A stretch of DNA of 64,000 nucleotides, from positions 1,399,501-1,463,500 of the forward strand of contig NZ_JASPFK010000001.1 of NCBI RefSeq assembly GCF_036855935.1, read 5' to 3'. The translations under genes and the position numbers were made by a program. Origin of the DNA: Sphingomonas sp. LR60 (GTDB lineage: Bacteria; Pseudomonadota; Alphaproteobacteria; Sphingomonadales; Sphingomonadaceae). Shown here piece after piece: positions 16,842 to 63,442 of the stretch. How positions within the stretch are numbered: the first letter of the stretch is position 1; each line of letters opens with the position of its first letter. A model generated the notes under the pieces. The model had not been told where the DNA came from and ran no database searches. It saw nothing but the letters and a program-made list of their open reading frames with translations.

Positions 16842-17051
16842 GGGACACTCACGACCGTTCGCGCTAAGCTTGTCGAAGTACGCGCTCGAGGCGCTGTGCT
16901 GCCGGCACGTGCTTCGACAGGCTCAGCACGAACGGAAGGAGTGGCTTTCCACAACCTCGTCATTCCCGCGAAGGCGGGAATCAAGACGCGCGGATCTGTC
17001 GATAGAGGCGCAACGTCAGAGGTTCTGGATTCCCGCCTTCGCGGGAATGAC
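16840..17051. repeat. Composite palindromic unit, copy 1 (families A + B)
   Basis: A ~212-bp unit. It contains a family A palindrome (arms at 16855-16878 and 16912-16935), then a family B palindrome (GTCATTCCCGCGAAGGCGGG near 16960 and CCCGCCTTCGCGGGAATGAC ending at 17051). A near-identical second copy starts 283 bp downstream. It begins right at the stop of the ferredoxin-like gene. Confidence 0.9.
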
Positions 17052-17122
17052 GGTGGGGAGAGATGCGAGCCCACTTCCGCGATCACGCCACCGGCAATCT
17101 CCGGCAGGTCAGGTGACGGGCT

Positions 17123-17333
17123 GAGGGACACTCACGACCGTTCGCGCTGAGCTTGTCGAAGTACGTGTTCGCGGCGCTGTGTGGCGGCGCGTGCTTCGAG
17201 CGGCTCAGCACGAACGGAAGGAGTGGCTGTCCACAACTTCGTCATTCCCGCGAAGGCGGGAATCCAGACGCGCGGGTCTGTCGATAGAGGCGCGAGGTCA
17301 GAGGTTCTGGATTCCCGCCTTCGCGGGAATGAC
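17123..17333. repeat. Composite palindromic unit, copy 2 (families A + B)
   Basis: A direct repeat of 16840-17051, about 90 percent identical by eye. It has the same order of family A palindrome (arms 17138-17161 and 17192-17217) and family B palindrome (17241-17333). The terminal hairpin lies just after the paoC stop at 17345 and could end that leftward transcript. The ~70 bp between copies holds no gene. Confidence 0.9.
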
Positions 17334-31310: not shown

Positions 31311-34124
31311 TTACAGCGTGCGCTCGCGCAGTTCGACTTCGAAGGTTTCGAGATAATCCCCGGCCTTGATGTCGATGAAGTTCTGCGTGAACGTGACACC
31401 GCACTCCAGACCGGCGCGCACTTCCGGCACGTCGTCCTTGAAGCGCCGCAGCGACGCGATCTCACCGCTGTAGATGATGACGTCGTTGCGCGTGATGCGC
31501 GCTTTGAGCGCCTTGCGAATGACGCCCTCGGTGACCAGCAGACCGGCGGCCTTGCCGTGCTTGCCCGCCGAGAAGACCTCGCGGATTTCCGCACGACCGA
31601 CGACCGTCTCGAACGCTTCCGGCCCAAGCTCGCCTGCCATACCGGCGCGGATCTCGTCGATCAGGTCATAGATGACGTCGTAATATTTCAACGCCACCTT
31701 CTGCCGCTCGGCGATCTCGCGGGCCTTGGCATTGGCGCGGACGTGGAAGCCGATGATCGGCGCGCCGCTGGCACCCGCCAGCGTCACGTCGCTCTCGGTG
31801 ATCCCGCCGACGCCCGAGTGCAACACCCGCGCGCGGATCAGATCGGTCGAGATCTTGTTGATCGATGCGACGATCGCCTCGACCGTGCCCTGCGTATCGG
31901 CCTTCACGACCAGCGGATATTCGATCGCAGCATTCGCACGCAGCGCCGAGAACATGTTCTCGAGGCTGGTCGGCGCCGAGGTCGTGCGCTTCTGCGTGAG
32001 CACGCTCTGGCGATATTCCGCGACTTCACGCGCGCGCTGCTCGTTCTCGACGACCTGCAACTGGTCGCCCGCCGACGGCGTGCCCGACAGGCCGAGCACC
32101 TCGACCGGCATCGACGGACCCGCGACCTTGAGCTGACGCCCCTTGTCGTCGACCAATGCACGAACCTTGCCGCTCTCCGCGCCGACGACGAACACGTCGC
32201 CGACCCGCAGCGTGCCGCGCGTGACGAGCACGGTCGCGACCGGACCACGGCCCTTGTCGAGTTTGGCCTCGATCACGCTGCCCTCGGCGGCACGATCCGG
32301 GTTCGCGCGCAGGTCGAGCAATTCGGCCTGGAGCTGGATCTTCTCGATCAGTTCGTCGAGCCCGATCTTCTTGAGCGCGGAAACTTCGACGTCCTGCGTC
32401 TCGCCGCCCATCATCTCGACCTGGATGTTGTGCTCCAGCAGACGCTCGCGGACACGCTGCGCATTCGCCTCGTGCTTGTCGATCTTGTTGATCGCCACGA
32501 TCATCGGCTTGCCCGACGCCTTGGTGTGATTGATCGCCTCGATCGTCTGCGGCATCAGCCCGTCGTCGGCGGCGACCACCAGCACCACGATATCGGTCAC
32601 GTCGGCACCGCGCGCCCGCATCGCGGTGAACGCTTCGTGGCCCGGCGTGTCGAGGAAGGTGATCTTCGACTTGTCCTTCAGCGTGACCTGATAGGCGCCG
32701 ATATGCTGCGTGATGCCACCGGCCTCGCCACGTACCACATCGGTGCCGCGCAGCGCGTCGAGCAGCGAGGTCTTGCCGTGGTCGACATGGCCCATGATCG
32801 TCACGACCGGCGGGCGCGTCTGCAACGTCTCCGCCGCATCCTCGGTGGTGTCCATCGCCAGATCGATGTCCGAATCCGAGACGCGGACGATGTTGTGGCC
32901 GAATTCGGTCACCAGCAGCTCGGCGGTGTCCTGGTCGATCGTCTGCGTCATCGTGACGGGCATGCCCATCTTGAACAGCGTCTTGACCAGATCGGCCCCA
33001 CGCTCCGCCATGCGGTTCGCGAGTTCCTGCACCGTGATCGCCTCGGGCACCTGCACGTCGCGGACCTGCTTGGCCTGCGGCTCGCGCGGGCCGCCGAAGC
33101 CACGCTTCTCCTTCTCGCGCGCGCGCTTCAGCGCGGCGAGGCTGCGGGCGCGCGCACCGTCTTCGTTGAGCGCGCGCGTGACGGTCAGCTTGCCGCCACG
33201 ACGCTCGTCACCCTTGCGGTCACGCTGCTGCGGACGTGCCGGGCTGTTGTTGCGCGGCGTCGCCTGACCACTGGGCAAACTGCGCGATGCGGCGCTGCCA
33301 CCGGCAGTCGGCGCGTTTGTCGACGCGGCAGGAGCCGAAGCGGCGGCCGGCGCAGGCGCCGGCTTGGGTTGCGGCTTCGGGATTTCGGGACGCGCGACCG
33401 GCGAGAAGCGGCGCGGCGCGGGCATCGACGGATCGCGACCCAGCCCAAGTGTCGGGGCGGGAGCGGGCGTCGGTGCGGCACGCGGCGCGGGAGCCGGCTT
33501 CGGTGCCGGGCTCGGCGCGGGAGCTGGCGCTGCCTCGGCAACCGGGGCAGGCGCGGGCGTCGGCGCTACCACCGGGGCAGGCGCAGGGGTCGCGGCCTCG
33601 ACTGGTGCGGGAGCGGGCGTCGGCGCCGGCTCGGGGGCATGCTGCGCGGCAACCGGTTCCGGTGCCGCCGGGGCAGGCGTCGGCTCCGCAGCCTTGGCAG
33701 TCGCCTCGGCTTCAGCACGCGCGCGCTCGTCGACGCGACGACGCTCTTCATCGGCAGCGCGGTGACGCTCGGCATCCTCGCGACGGCGGCTTTCCTCCAG
33801 CGTGTGCATGCGCTGGTCTTCAGCCTCGCGAAGCAGGCGTGCCTGACGCTCCTGCGCGGTCTCGTTCGAAACCGGCGGGCGCGGTGCGGGACGCGCAGGG
33901 GCGACCGGCGCGGTGGGCGCAGGGGTCGGCTCAGGCGCGGGGGTCACTGCCTCGGGCGCACCGCCCTGCGGACCGAGTACGCGGCGACGCTTCACCTCGA
34001 CCACCACCGTATTGCTACGGCCGTGGCTGAAGCTCTGCTTCACCTTGCCGGTCTCGACCGTGCGCTTGAGCCCCAGCGGCTGGCGCATTCCGAGTTTCGG
34101 CTTGTCGTTGTCGGTCTCGCTCAC
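31311..34124 (-). CDS. infB: Translation initiation factor IF-2
   Basis: A 937-residue GTPase that positions initiator tRNA. An N-terminal IF2-associated region ([29 protein letters not shown]) is followed by a charged coiled coil (~95-150) and a long Ala/Pro-rich linker (~150-300). The IF2-N domain starts near [18 protein letters not shown]. The G domain has [14 protein letters not shown] (~441), [15 protein letters not shown] and [12 protein letters not shown], and domains II-IV complete the protein. The GTG start at 34124 follows the ylxR stop with no gap. Confidence 0.97.
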
Positions 34125-34832
34125 TCAAATTCCTCGTGCATTCTCACGGCCGGTAGCGGTCGCCTCGGCAATGCCGGGCGCCGATGCGCCTTGCGCGGCC
34201 GTAGCGCAAGGTGCTGGATTCAGATCAGGGCCGATAAAGTGCAGCCAACGATCGAGCGCTTCGCTGAGTCGTGTGGCCGCAGCGCGGTCGATGACGCCGA
34301 CGTGTACCACATTTTCGCGGCCCAGCGCCAATGACAATATGGGGCGCGCCACCGGCAGTGCCAAGCCCCTGACGTCCGAACCTTCGCGATCGGACCCGAC
34401 GCGCCACGCCTGCGCCAGTTTGCGGCAGCCGTCCTCGGCCGCGTCGGCAGCGTGATAAAGCGCCCGAAGCTTGCCCGAGCGCGCAGCGGTCTCGATCCGC
34501 TCGGAGCCGGTAAGGATCGTCCCACCGCGCGACTCCAGCCCGAGCCGGTCGAGCGCATTGCGCTCCAGCGCGGCGGCGATCAGCGCGGGCAGGTCGTCGG
34601 GGATGGTCAACTCGCCGGTCTTGAACGCGCGTGCGAGCGCGCCGCGCAGCTTGCCCTTGGCGATCGCCTGTTCCAGCTCGGCGCGGTCAACCCCGATCCA
34701 CGCGCCACGGCCGGGAGCCTTGGCGCGCACGTCCGGCAACACCCGCCCGTCGGGGGCGAGCGCCAACCGAATCAGCGCCGCGGGCGACGCACGCTCGCGG
34801 GTGAGGATGCAGGAGCGTTCGGGAGCGGTCAT
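34125..34832 (-). CDS. YlxR/DUF448 RNA-binding protein with C-terminal L7Ae-like region
   Basis: A 235-residue protein. The N-terminal YlxR domain (residues 1-75) shows RSCILTRERASPAALIRLALAPDGRVLPDV and GRGAWIGVDRAELEQAI. The middle part (~95-180) is L7Ae-like (LDRLGLESRGGTILTGSERIETAARSGKLRALYHAADAAED). The family is usually encoded between nusA and infB, as here, and YlxR homologues bind RNA and influence RNase P or transcription. The YlxR cysteine is retained at residue 8. It joins infB with no gap. Confidence 0.9.
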   Translation of the reverse strand: MTAPERSCILTRERASPAALIRLALAPDGRVLPDVRAKAPGRGAWIGVDRAELEQAIAKGKLRGALARAFKTGELTIPDDLPALIAAALERNALDRLGLESRGGTILTGSERIETAARSGKLRALYHAADAAEDGCRKLAQAWRVGSDREGSDVRGLALPVARPILSLALGRENVVHVGVIDRAAATRLSEALDRWLHFIGPDLNPAPCATAAQGASAPGIAEATATGRENARGI

Positions 34833-34857
34833 GCGCGTACCCCAGACATCACAATCG

Positions 34858-34950
34858 TCACTCCGGACTTGTTCCGGGGTCCACCGTGCCGCACCATCTT
34901 ACGGCGGCGGATTCGCGGAAGAGTGGATGCCGGGACAGGCCCGGCATGAC
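34858..34950. repeat. Intergenic palindrome, family E, upstream of GIY-YIG gene
   Basis: The left arm contains TCCGGACTTGTTCCGGGGTC and CACCG, and the right arm GTGGATGCCGGGACAGGCCC and GGCATGAC. A relative lies at 63349-63442. The ATG of the downstream GIY-YIG gene is formed by the right arm. Confidence 0.82.
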
Positions 34951-35275
34951 GGGGGAAGAGGAAGTGAGAGAACGGCAACCCTGCGTCTACATTATGGCCA
35001 GTAGTAAGAACGGCACGCTCTACATCGGCGTCACGTCCAACCTGCTCGGCCGCATCATGCAGCACCGCAACGGCGCCTTCGGTGGGTTCACCGAGCGCTA
35101 CGCCGTCAAACATCTCGTCTGGTACGAAATGGCCGATACGATGGAGGCCGCCATTGCGGCCGAGAAGCGCATTAAGAAATGGCCGCGCCAATGGAAGCTC
35201 AACCTGATCGAGCGCGACAATCCGCAGTGGCACGATCTCGCGATCGCACTCGGGCTGGATGTCGTGCGCAACTGA
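34946..35275 (+). CDS. GIY-YIG nuclease-domain protein
   Basis: A 109-residue UvrC/GIY-YIG-like nuclease domain. It has CVYIMASSKNGTLYIGVTS (the Y-x-x/YIG elements), an Arg in NLLGRIMQHRNG and a catalytic Glu in AAIAAEKRIKKWPR. ATG 34946 lies inside the palindrome; GTG 34964, which follows a GGGGGAAGAGGAA purine tract, is also plausible and would remove six residues. It is antisense to the nusA-infB operon and bracketed by family E palindromes (34858-34950 and 35318-35347). Such small proteins occur in multiple copies in many alphaproteobacteria; function and targets are unknown. Confidence 0.85.
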   Translation: MTGEEEVRERQPCVYIMASSKNGTLYIGVTSNLLGRIMQHRNGAFGGFTERYAVKHLVWYEMADTMEAAIAAEKRIKKWPRQWKLNLIERDNPQWHDLAIALGLDVVRN

Positions 35276-35317
35276 TCGCCCCTCTCGCAAAGGCGCGGGC
35301 AGGAAGGTCGTGATAGC

Positions 35318-35347
35318 GGTGGATGCCGGGACGAGCCCCGCATGACG
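35318..35347. repeat. Half palindrome, family E
   Basis: The stretch GGTGGATGCCGGGACGAGCC followed by CCGCATGAC matches the right arm of the 34858-34950 palindrome in the same orientation. It lies 43 bp after the GIY-YIG gene. No left arm is recognised here. Confidence 0.65.
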
Positions 35348-35363
35348 ATGAAGCGTCAGCGTC

Positions 35364-35594
35364 TCATTGTCGGGGGTCCGCATGCGCGTCTCCCTTGGCA
35401 ACAGGCGCGTCGCGGTCGGCCAGCAACTGGCCGCCCGCACCGTAATTTTCGGTCGACACTTCCTCGATCACGATCTGCACCGCGGCCGGGTTCTTGGCCA
35501 GCCGCGTGACCAGCGACGTCGTAACGTCTGCCACGATCGCCGCTTTCTGCTCGCGCGTCGCCGCGCCGGCCAGTCGGATCGACACGAACGGCAT
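35364..35594 (-). CDS. 4-oxalocrotonate tautomerase family protein
   Basis: A 76-residue tautomerase fold. After removal of Met the N-terminal Pro is the catalytic base (MPFVSIRLAGAATREQKAAIV), and VIEEVSTENYGAGGQLL gives the C-terminal strand region. Its substrate is unknown; close family members act on phenylpyruvate or muconate-type ketones. It follows nusA with a one-base overlap, an unusual position in the nusA-infB operon. Confidence 0.87.
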   Translation of the reverse strand: MPFVSIRLAGAATREQKAAIVADVTTSLVTRLAKNPAAVQIVIEEVSTENYGAGGQLLADRDAPVAKGDAHADPRQ

Positions 35595-37225
35595 CAGGCG
35601 TCCTGATCCTCCGACGCCTGCTCGGCGGGCTGTTCGGCGGCCGGCTCGTCCTCGAACCAGTGCGCGCGTGCGGCCATGATGATCTCATTGCCCTGTTCGT
35701 CGCTGAGCCCGTACTCGCCCAGCACGCCGCCCTTGTTCTCGGGACGATCGGTGCGACGCGGCGCATCGTCGTTGCGGCGGCGCGGCTCGGCGCGCTTCTT
35801 CTCGACCAGCTCGTCGGTCGCGAGATCGGCGAGGTCGTCAAGCGTCTTGATCCCGGCCTTGCCGAGCGTGACGAGCATCGCTTCGGTCAGATACGGCAGC
35901 TCGGCCAGCGCGTCCTCGACGCCCAGCGCCTGCCGCTCCTCGCGGTTGGCCTGTTCGCGACGATCGAGCGCTTCCTGCGCGCGGCTCTGCAATTCCTGCG
36001 CGAGATCCTCGTCGAAGCCCTCGATGCCCGCCAGCTCGTCGAGCTCGACATAGGCGACCTCTTCCAGCGCGCCGAAGCCTTCGGCGACCAGCAGCTGTGC
36101 CAGCGTCTCGTCGACATCCAGCTCGTTCTGGAAGGTCTCGGAATTCTTGACGAACTCCTGCTGACGCTTCTCGCTGGCGTCGGTCTCGGTCAGGATGTCG
36201 ATCGCCTTGGCGGTCAACTGGCTGGCGAGGCGGACGTTCTGGCCGCGGCGACCGATCGCGAGGCTGAGCTGATCGTCGGGGACGACCACCTCGATGCGAT
36301 CCTCTTCCTCGTCGATCACCACGCGCGCGACGTTCGCCGGCTGCAACGCATTGACGACGAAGGTCGCGGTGTCGGGCGACCAGGGGATGATGTCGATCTT
36401 CTCGCCCTGCATCTCCTGCACGACCGCCTGCACGCGGCTGCCCTTCATGCCGACGCACGCGCCGACCGGGTCGATGCTGGAGTCATGCGAGATGACGCCG
36501 ATCTTGGCGCGGCTGCCCGGATCGCGCGCGGCGGCCTTGATCTCGATGATGCCGTCGTAGATTTCGGGCACTTCCTGCGCGAACAGCTTCTTCATGAAGT
36601 CGGGATGCGCGCGGCTCAGGAAGATCTGCGGGCCGCGGTTCTCGCGCACCACCTTCAGGATCAGCGAGCGGATGCGATCGTTGACGCGCACCACTTCGCG
36701 CGGGATCTGCGCGTCGCGGCGGATGACGCCCTCGGCGCGGCCGAGGTCGACGACGATATGGCCGAACTCGACGCGCTTGACGACGCCGGTGATGATCTCG
36801 CCGGCGCGCTCCTTGAATTCTTCATACTGGCGCTCGCGCTCGGCATCGCGGACCTTCTGGAAGATCGTCTGCTTGGCGGCCTGCGCCTGGATGCGGCCGA
36901 ACTCGATCGGGGGCAGCGGATCGACCAGATAGTCGCCGACGGTCGCGCCCGGCTGCAGCTTCTGCGCGCCGTTGACGTCGACCTGCTTGTAGATGTCGTC
37001 GACCAGCTCGACCACCTCGACGACGCGCCACAGGCGCAGGTCGCCGTTGTTCGAATCCAGCTTCGCGCGGATGTCCATTTCCTGGCCGTAGCGGGTGCGC
37101 GCGGCGCGCTGGATCGCATCTTCCATCGCCTCGATGACGATCGCCTTGTCGATCATCTTCTCCGAAGCGACCGAATTGGCGATCGCGATCAGCTCCGCAC
37201 GATTGGCGGTGACGCCGGTGGCCAT
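35594..37225 (-). CDS. nusA: Transcription termination/antitermination factor NusA
   Basis: A 543-residue RNA polymerase-associated factor. The N-terminal RNAP-binding domain runs to about 125. The S1 domain (RAGEIITGVVKRVEFGHIVVDLGRAEG) is near 140-205, and two KH domains include VGMKGSRVQAVVQEMQGEKIDIIPW and SLAIGRRGQNVRLASQLT. The C-terminal acidic repeats (~360-430) follow, with a low-complexity tail. The start overlaps the rimP stop by one base. Confidence 0.97.
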   Translation of the reverse strand: MATGVTANRAELIAIANSVASEKMIDKAIVIEAMEDAIQRAARTRYGQEMDIRAKLDSNNGDLRLWRVVEVVELVDDIYKQVDVNGAQKLQPGATVGDYLVDPLPPIEFGRIQAQAAKQTIFQKVRDAERERQYEEFKERAGEIITGVVKRVEFGHIVVDLGRAEGVIRRDAQIPREVVRVNDRIRSLILKVVRENRGPQIFLSRAHPDFMKKLFAQEVPEIYDGIIEIKAAARDPGSRAKIGVISHDSSIDPVGACVGMKGSRVQAVVQEMQGEKIDIIPWSPDTATFVVNALQPANVARVVIDEEEDRIEVVVPDDQLSLAIGRRGQNVRLASQLTAKAIDILTETDASEKRQQEFVKNSETFQNELDVDETLAQLLVAEGFGALEEVAYVELDELAGIEGFDEDLAQELQSRAQEALDRREQANREERQALGVEDALAELPYLTEAMLVTLGKAGIKTLDDLADLATDELVEKKRAEPRRRNDDAPRRTDRPENKGGVLGEYGLSDEQGNEIIMAARAHWFEDEPAAEQPAEQASEDQDA

Positions 37226-63348: not shown

Positions 63349-63442
63349 CGTCATGCCGGACTCGTTCCGGCATCCACCGTTCCGCTAACGGGTAAGTGTT
63401 GATCCTGCGGAACGGTGGACCCCGGAACAAGTCCGGGGTTAC
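63349..63442. repeat. Intergenic palindrome, family E
   Basis: The left arm CGTCATGCCGGACTCGTTCC with GGCATCCACC and the right arm GGTGGACCCCGGAACAAGTC with CGGGGTTACG. It is the complete relative of the half copies around the GIY-YIG gene. Confidence 0.82.

Follow-up and report, generated by a model that had tools for sequence, protein, structure and literature searches.

The analysed stretch of DNA (the window) comprises 64,000 nucleotides of the Sphingomonas sp. LR60 genome. Its nusA–infB region contains a small GIY-YIG nuclease gene accompanied by three palindromes of the repetitive extragenic palindromic (REP) type. The gene (window positions 34946..35275, + strand) matches PF01541 with an E-value of 2.5e-16 (60.2 bits). 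It is antisense to infB, ylxR, a tautomerase-family gene and nusA, and it separates the tautomerase gene from ylxR. The encoded protein consists of one GIY-YIG domain alone. Two REPs precede the gene and form a head-to-head, REPIN-like pair (REPIN, REP doublet forming hairpin) of 94 nt: the outer left one (34856..34882, + strand) has its head outward and an 8-bp stem with one G-T position, a CTTGT loop and a CCA tail, as read by eye, and the other (34925..34951, − strand) has a perfect 8-bp stem. A single REP with one stem mismatch lies behind the gene (outer right, 35321..35347, − strand), and the outermost heads of the cassette point outward. The three palindromes are imperfect copies of one another, and two of them carry one non-Watson-Crick stem position each. 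The PF01541 match and the three REPs bear out the preliminary description of this locus as an antisense GIY-YIG gene bracketed by palindromes inside nusA–infB.

All three window REPs show, by eye, a CGTC tag, an 8-bp stem, a 5-nt loop and a CCA tail. These are features of the CGTC REP super-family, which is defined by a CGTC tag, a stem of 8–9 bp, a loop of 4–5 nt and a CCA-like tail (Di Nocera, De Gregorio and Rocco 2013, PMC3733652). In the sections of that paper used here, CGTC REPs form head-to-head dimers and are found above all in Alphaproteobacteria (S. wittichii and S. chlorophenolicum among them); they are present in every alphaproteobacterial order and in five phyla. The same sections describe them as apparently lacking a dedicated transposase, report that CGTC repeats were not found to flank any tyrosine transposase gene, and close by asking which enzyme, if any, moves them. 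The string "giy" is absent from that paper's main text. No earlier description of a link between a GIY-YIG nuclease and CGTC REPs was found in the open-access literature searched; subscription papers and preprints lay mostly outside this search, and a prior description is possible.

A segment of about 520 bp (34829..35352) is inserted relative to a close relative of the same genus (G137), as seen in the alignment to its contig C8. The flanks are ~90% identical and meet at one base of the empty site. In G137 the tautomerase is 99% identical, NusA is 98% identical over the compared part and the DNA is ~90% identical; the tautomerase gene and ylxR overlap, and ylxR can start inside the end of the tautomerase gene. 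Thirty same-genus loci, out of 43 matched places, were examined at the nusA–ylxR site. Six of them, the window's own included, carry a GIY-YIG gene and 24, including G137, do not. The cassette is thus not fixed among relatives, and the empty sites that the preliminary description proposed to look for do exist. On a NusA tree the six occupied sites need six changes, compared with a mean of 5.6 for shuffled labels. This is no fewer than for shuffled labels, and the presence of the gene at this site is therefore patchy. Five of the site's genes (window, L148, L149, L150 and L167) belong to one seven-row GIY-YIG clade; L151 and L152 complete the clade, yet sit in other neighbourhoods. With these two genes from elsewhere in the clade, repeated gain and an old gain with repeated loss may both fit the pattern. 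Three gene-less sites (L119, L136 and L145) keep a REP or REP remnant, and four (L128, L146, L144 and L123) are clean by eye. A GIY-YIG gene occupies this site in Sphingomonas sp. Leaf242 as well (L271), and the four best named matches are all Sphingomonas.

The linkage of gene and palindromes was surveyed in 119 genomes of the family Sphingomonadaceae, 89 of which contain a GIY-YIG match. The sample consisted of 30 listed loci and 80 further places from the family search; 113 family loci were scored for flanking inverted repeats, and 28 new same-genus loci added later brought the set to 141. REP-type labels (T, N, P, A, B, D and E) are our own patterns; they leave seven of the 141 loci unlabelled, label the window cassette E on its 5′ side only, missing the 3′ side, and assign N to L150 although it lies beside E-type sequence. 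In 134 of 141 loci the gene has a REP-type palindrome no more than 180 nt away on one side or both; 98 loci have one on both sides, and in 87 of the 98 the two sides are of the same type. By side, the counts are 125/140 (5′) and 106/141 (3′), whereas the farther 180-nt bins, from 180 to 1080 nt, hold a palindrome in 2–10 (5′) and 3–12 (3′) of ~140 loci. The heads are predominantly directed outward: + 93 and − 33 of 140 in the 5′ flank, + 27 and − 79 of 141 in the 3′ flank, and 1–9 in the farther bins. An orientation taken from symmetric stem patterns was dropped in favour of this head-based count.

Flank-to-flank inverted repeats reach a score of at least 14 in 94 of 113 family loci and in none of 112 control pairs at 700–860 nt; the threshold of 14 was set after the first control flank pairs, with a maximum of 13, had been seen. 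Between loci from distinct neighbourhoods, identity is 0.26–0.29 at 11–40 nt before the GTC and 0.87–0.98 in the 26 nt from the GTC on, the inner value being partly a matter of construction, as the comparison is anchored on the REP. It covers the T, P, A and E types, with too few loci for D and N. The C directly before the GTC in the 5′ REPs is present in 14/15 (T), 9/9 (P), 9/11 (A) and 12/14 (E) loci. In scores, geometry and ends, terminal inverted repeats, as in an insertion sequence, thus bound the cassettes family-wide; they are weak for the window copy, which scores 9.

The type of REP follows the phylogeny of the nuclease. For the 134 labelled loci, REP type mapped on the protein tree requires 24 changes, compared with a mean of 84.5 for shuffled labels, and none of 200 shuffles is as low. 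When each neighbourhood is represented by a single locus (50 or 54 loci, 20 draws each), 10–14 changes are needed; the shuffled means are 31.1 and 33.4 and the lowest shuffle is 23. Shared synteny is therefore not the explanation for the pairing. The preliminary description had singled out one palindrome family, E, as the partner of the nuclease. Family E does lie beside the window gene, but it is one of several variants, and as the sole partner it was rejected, other GIY-YIG clades pairing with REP variants of their own.

The same diversity is found within the Sphingomonas sp. LR60 genome (3.94 Mb), which has seven PF01541 matches and one broken copy added by a protein search. Small genes of the window kind make up four of the seven, each adjoining a different REP variant: the window gene type E, L003 type D, L004 type B and L005 type A. 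L004 presumably lies between mdh and sucD and L005 next to pheS, as read from open reading frames without family search; L005 has a TAG within its aligned part. The other three matches have no directly adjacent palindrome. L001 and L007, GIY-YIG genes of another kind, show no CGTC hairpin in their 3.1–3.2 kb loci, and L006 has one relaxed CGTC hairpin match, 219 nt from the GIY-YIG domain. The expectation that small GIY-YIG genes always stand beside family E therefore fails. The genome holds one GIY-YIG copy, intact or broken, per REP type. A broken P-type cassette is visible by eye in L360 (C1:3023800-3026800, ~1175–1710) with P-type REPs at both ends; it is interrupted by DNA bearing a B-type REP pair.

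The strict REP pattern finds 220 REPs in this genome and the reversed control pattern none. By our estimate, these are far too few to adjoin nearly every such gene by chance. Head-to-head dimers predominate: by eye, in contig C1 up to position 770897, 32 of 46 REPs form 16 pairs, 15 of them of 91–95 nt. The window contains a further head-to-head pair of the cassette's REP variant, without a gene (63350..63442, 93 nt), in a region that differs from G137. Separately, two A-type REP pairs lie 282 nt apart at 16959–17333 of the window and are apparently a duplicated pair.

Copy numbers of REPs and genes are correlated. Across the 119 genomes, GIY-YIG matches and strict REPs give a Spearman coefficient of 0.67 (with the REP count of G002 entered as 11, not 22). 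The median number of strict REPs is 0.5 in the 30 genomes without a match and 9 in the 89 genomes with one. The comparisons by REP type rest, as do all copy-number comparisons here, on fetched genes only and ignore phylogeny. Of the 31 genomes with a fetched T-type gene, 29 carry T-type REPs (median 12); of the 88 others, 20 do (median 0). Copies exceed four in 23/31 and 10/88, respectively. N-type REPs, which have a longer hairpin, are present in all ten genomes with an N-type gene (median 13) and in 22 of 109 others.

In a wider, phylum draw, a GIY-YIG match is present in 234 of 397 genomes. The out-of-family set combined 19 loci with 60 more places to 79, from which L247 was dropped for its short flank. 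Flanking inverted repeats score at least 14 in 44 of the 78 scored loci and in none of 71 controls. A further set, overlapping with the phylum set in a few genomes, consisted of 80 named loci and one viral contig; 43 of these 81 and none of 63 controls score at least 14. Named loci above the threshold include Rhizobium, Kaistia, Lysobacter and Dyella as well as bins labelled Anaerolineae, Sedimentisphaerales and Bacteroidia. Several other Rhizobium loci, both Patescibacteria bins (13 and 10) and a Latescibacterota bin lie below it. The sole viral relative in the close-relative search (L350, IMGVR_UViG_3300041964_000165) carries a GIY-YIG gene that is 72% identical, with CGTC-type palindromes nearby (by eye) and a flank score of 10, below 14.

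Residues Y15, Y26, G28, R36, E73 and N92 are kept in 99–100% of 141 relatives. They include the active-site Tyr, Tyr, Arg, Glu and Asn of the GIY-YIG superfamily. The median ratio of non-synonymous to synonymous substitution rates is 0.15 (82 of 91 pairs gave a value; the pairs are non-independent), which indicates purifying selection. Only two solved structures were matched by sequence, the UPF0213 proteins 1zg2 (E-value 1.2e-8) and 1ywl (E-value 8.9e-6). Both are single-domain GIY-YIG proteins like the window protein, but distant.

Nuclease and REPs are thus associated and inherited together. Most likely, the GIY-YIG gene encodes the dedicated nuclease of a CGTC-type REP family, as REP-associated tyrosine transposases (RAYTs) serve GTAG REPs. 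The earlier proposal of a nuclease–palindrome unit similar to REP/RAYT with a GIY-YIG enzyme is supported in this wider form, with mobilisation as its conjectural part. The unit would be a compact cassette: a gene for a lone GIY-YIG domain, framed by REPs whose heads point outward. Gene-less REPs, mostly ~93-nt head-to-head pairs here, would be its non-autonomous companions, as REPINs are for RAYTs. The nuclease would recognise its cognate REP when folded into a hairpin or cruciform and cut at or near the CGTC end; host repair would then place copies of the REP pair, and less often of the cassette with its gene, at other intergenic positions. Branched DNA is cut by SLX1-like single-domain nucleases, and this activity would suit a cruciform or hairpin. 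Whether CGTC REPs in general have single-domain GIY-YIG nucleases of ~95–110 residues as their transposases, with hairpin ends as the substrate and several clade-matched pairs per genome, is a proposition to which we give even odds.

The arrangement resembles the REPIN–RAYT or REPtron system, reportedly treated also by Nunvar in 2010 (PMC2817692). In both, a small enzyme gene is paired with a matched palindrome variant and flanked by cognate REPs, inverted pairs are the proposed spreading unit and several distinct gene–repeat pairs per genome are possible. They differ in the enzyme, which is GIY-YIG and not HUH Y1 (PF01797), and in the tag, which is CGTC and not GTAG. The GIY-YIG/CGTC REP unit works like REPIN–RAYT and is not a member of it. 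RAYTs are single-copy genes according to the parts of the RAYT–REPIN model paper used here (Bertels and Rainey 2011, PMC3116915), whereas one genome of our survey (G067) has five gene copies of one kind. The CGTC REP super-family, as portrayed in the sections of PMC3733652 cited above, has no reported dedicated transposase; here a clade-matched GIY-YIG gene lies between the REPs.

A number of observations weigh against the dedicated-nuclease interpretation. At the window site, the one occupied/empty pair (window and G137) shows no clear target duplication, with a 9-nt similarity only (by eye). Among the own-genome small genes only L004 (score 22) passes 14; L003 scores 8, L005 9 and the window 9, under a threshold passed by most relatives. 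Scores below 14 were also obtained for 34 of 78 out-of-family and 38 of 81 named or viral loci. The distance controls are mostly coding and not intergenic DNA, and part of the linkage contrast is therefore one of intergenic versus coding DNA. The GIY-YIG tree behind the pairing has weak resolution, with stars on 11 of its 138 inner branches. Sites are often shared between cassettes: the L005 neighbourhood accounts for 20 of 141 loci, with 11 A, 3 B, 3 D and 3 unlabelled types. This indicates that the GIY-YIG gene itself is seldom mobile, or returns to the same places by homing. Genomes without a match hold up to 12 strict REPs, and 8 of the 89 with a match hold none; G066, with no match, has 12 T-type REPs. 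Two REP-rich genomes have weak matches only (G045, 91 strict REPs, best E-value 4.8e-10; G024, 55 and 2.5e-12). The LR60 genome itself has 153 N-type REPs (GTCATTGCGAG...GCAATCC) and no intact N-type gene among its GIY-YIG matches; it is one of the 22 genomes with N-type REPs outside the ten with an N-type gene, as are G103 (54), G075 (38) and G018 (25). P-type REPs are present in 11 of 11 genomes with a P-type gene and in 9 of 108 others, but these counts largely represent the flanking copies themselves and add little.

The P-type copies of G067 (L351–L359) belong to the same list. This genome contains five P-type cassettes of 388–389 bp, one of which lacks 1 nt, as well as two copies of 252 bp and two of 342 bp that have the same ends but internal deletions. 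The copies are 96–100% identical and share, outside the cassette, ~28 nt of left flank and ~48 nt of right flank (by eye), which points to the copying of a larger unit. The exact right-hand flank motif is found in no other locus of the set, and flank queries within 400 kb of that genome match at its two cassette sites only. The copies may have spread inside a larger, perhaps nested, repeat. With this larger flank common to the copies, G067 was dropped as clean proof of transposition. As an observation apart, the L005 neighbourhood (pheS by our reading) is a hot spot for GIY-YIG cassettes.

Free-standing GIY-YIG homing endonucleases exist, and they share with the window gene the active site, the intergenic location and the patchy occupation of shared sites. 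Thus, a selfish GIY-YIG gene could cut REP pairs and be inserted in the spacer of its own target while the REPs spread otherwise. The cassette layout, a REP pair with its spacer replaced, and the repeated occupation of the same sites agree with such homing, and cognate pairing would be expected under it too. The matched genome-wide repeat families and the inverted REP ends, however, set the cassettes apart from these endonucleases. The clean empty sites L128, L146, L144 and L123 have no REP pair, although L119, L136 and L145 keep a REP or remnant, and the LR60 genome holds one gene copy per REP type against 220 strict-pattern REPs. We consider homing unlikely. A nuclease that keeps REPs in check by removing REP cruciforms, and is retained for that service, would account for the purifying selection and for the retention at shared sites; as REPs are fewer, and not more numerous, where the gene is missing, there is only a slight chance that this is its role. 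Slighter still is the chance that the REPs are regulatory or insulating hairpins around a horizontally acquired small intergenic gene with no enzymatic link. The mostly coding controls leave some room for it, but the clade-specific REP variant, the outward-head geometry and the copy number that tracks the cognate gene speak against it, as do the GIY-YIG genes of another kind, with no CGTC hairpin (L001, L007) or one relaxed match at 219 nt (L006). Movement of the REPs in trans by RAYT-type (Y1 HUH) transposases, with the GIY-YIG gene as a passenger, is the least probable and was set aside. The Y1_Tnp matches in 22 of 119 family genomes speak for it; against it, PF01797 has no match in the REP-rich LR60 genome, 17 of the 22 genomes with at least 30 strict REPs have no Y1 match (by eye), and according to the cited sections of PMC3733652 CGTC repeats were not found to flank any tyrosine transposase gene.

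With a clade-matched nuclease at hand, the question of the CGTC REP enzyme becomes testable with one small protein and one hairpin. If the dedicated-nuclease interpretation is true, the cassettes add an independent second example of a small nuclease that is maintained together with a palindrome population, and a function is suggested for many unnamed small GIY-YIG genes. To our knowledge, the GIY-YIG fold has not been recognised as that of a bacterial transposase.

The open reading frame of the window gene begins with an in-frame ATG at 34946 and ends with a stop codon at 35273–35275 (109 codons). This ATG lies in the second palindrome, as first described, but it is unlikely to be the true start codon. 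In seven relatives (L120, L131, L135, L142, L147, L151 and L152) the protein begins, by eye, with MRER.. from an ATG at the position of the in-frame GTG at 34964 (MRERQPCVYI...). Moreover, of 109 loci that have both a palindrome upstream and an in-frame ATG, only 8 have an ATG in or at the palindrome, so this is no general feature. Thus, translation probably starts at GTG 34964.

The neighbouring genes are all located on the − strand: infB (31311..34124), nusA (35594..37225), ylxR (34125..34832, PF04296) and the tautomerase-family gene adjoining nusA (35364..35594, PF01361). The start codon of ylxR (34830–34832) is within the inserted DNA. Inspection by eye of the cassette-free tautomerase–ylxR gaps L129, L134, L137, L138, L141 and L143 showed other long inverted repeats, of the CTCCCGC...GCGGGAGGGG kind. 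Accordingly, the nusA–ylxR junction seems to attract several repeat families.
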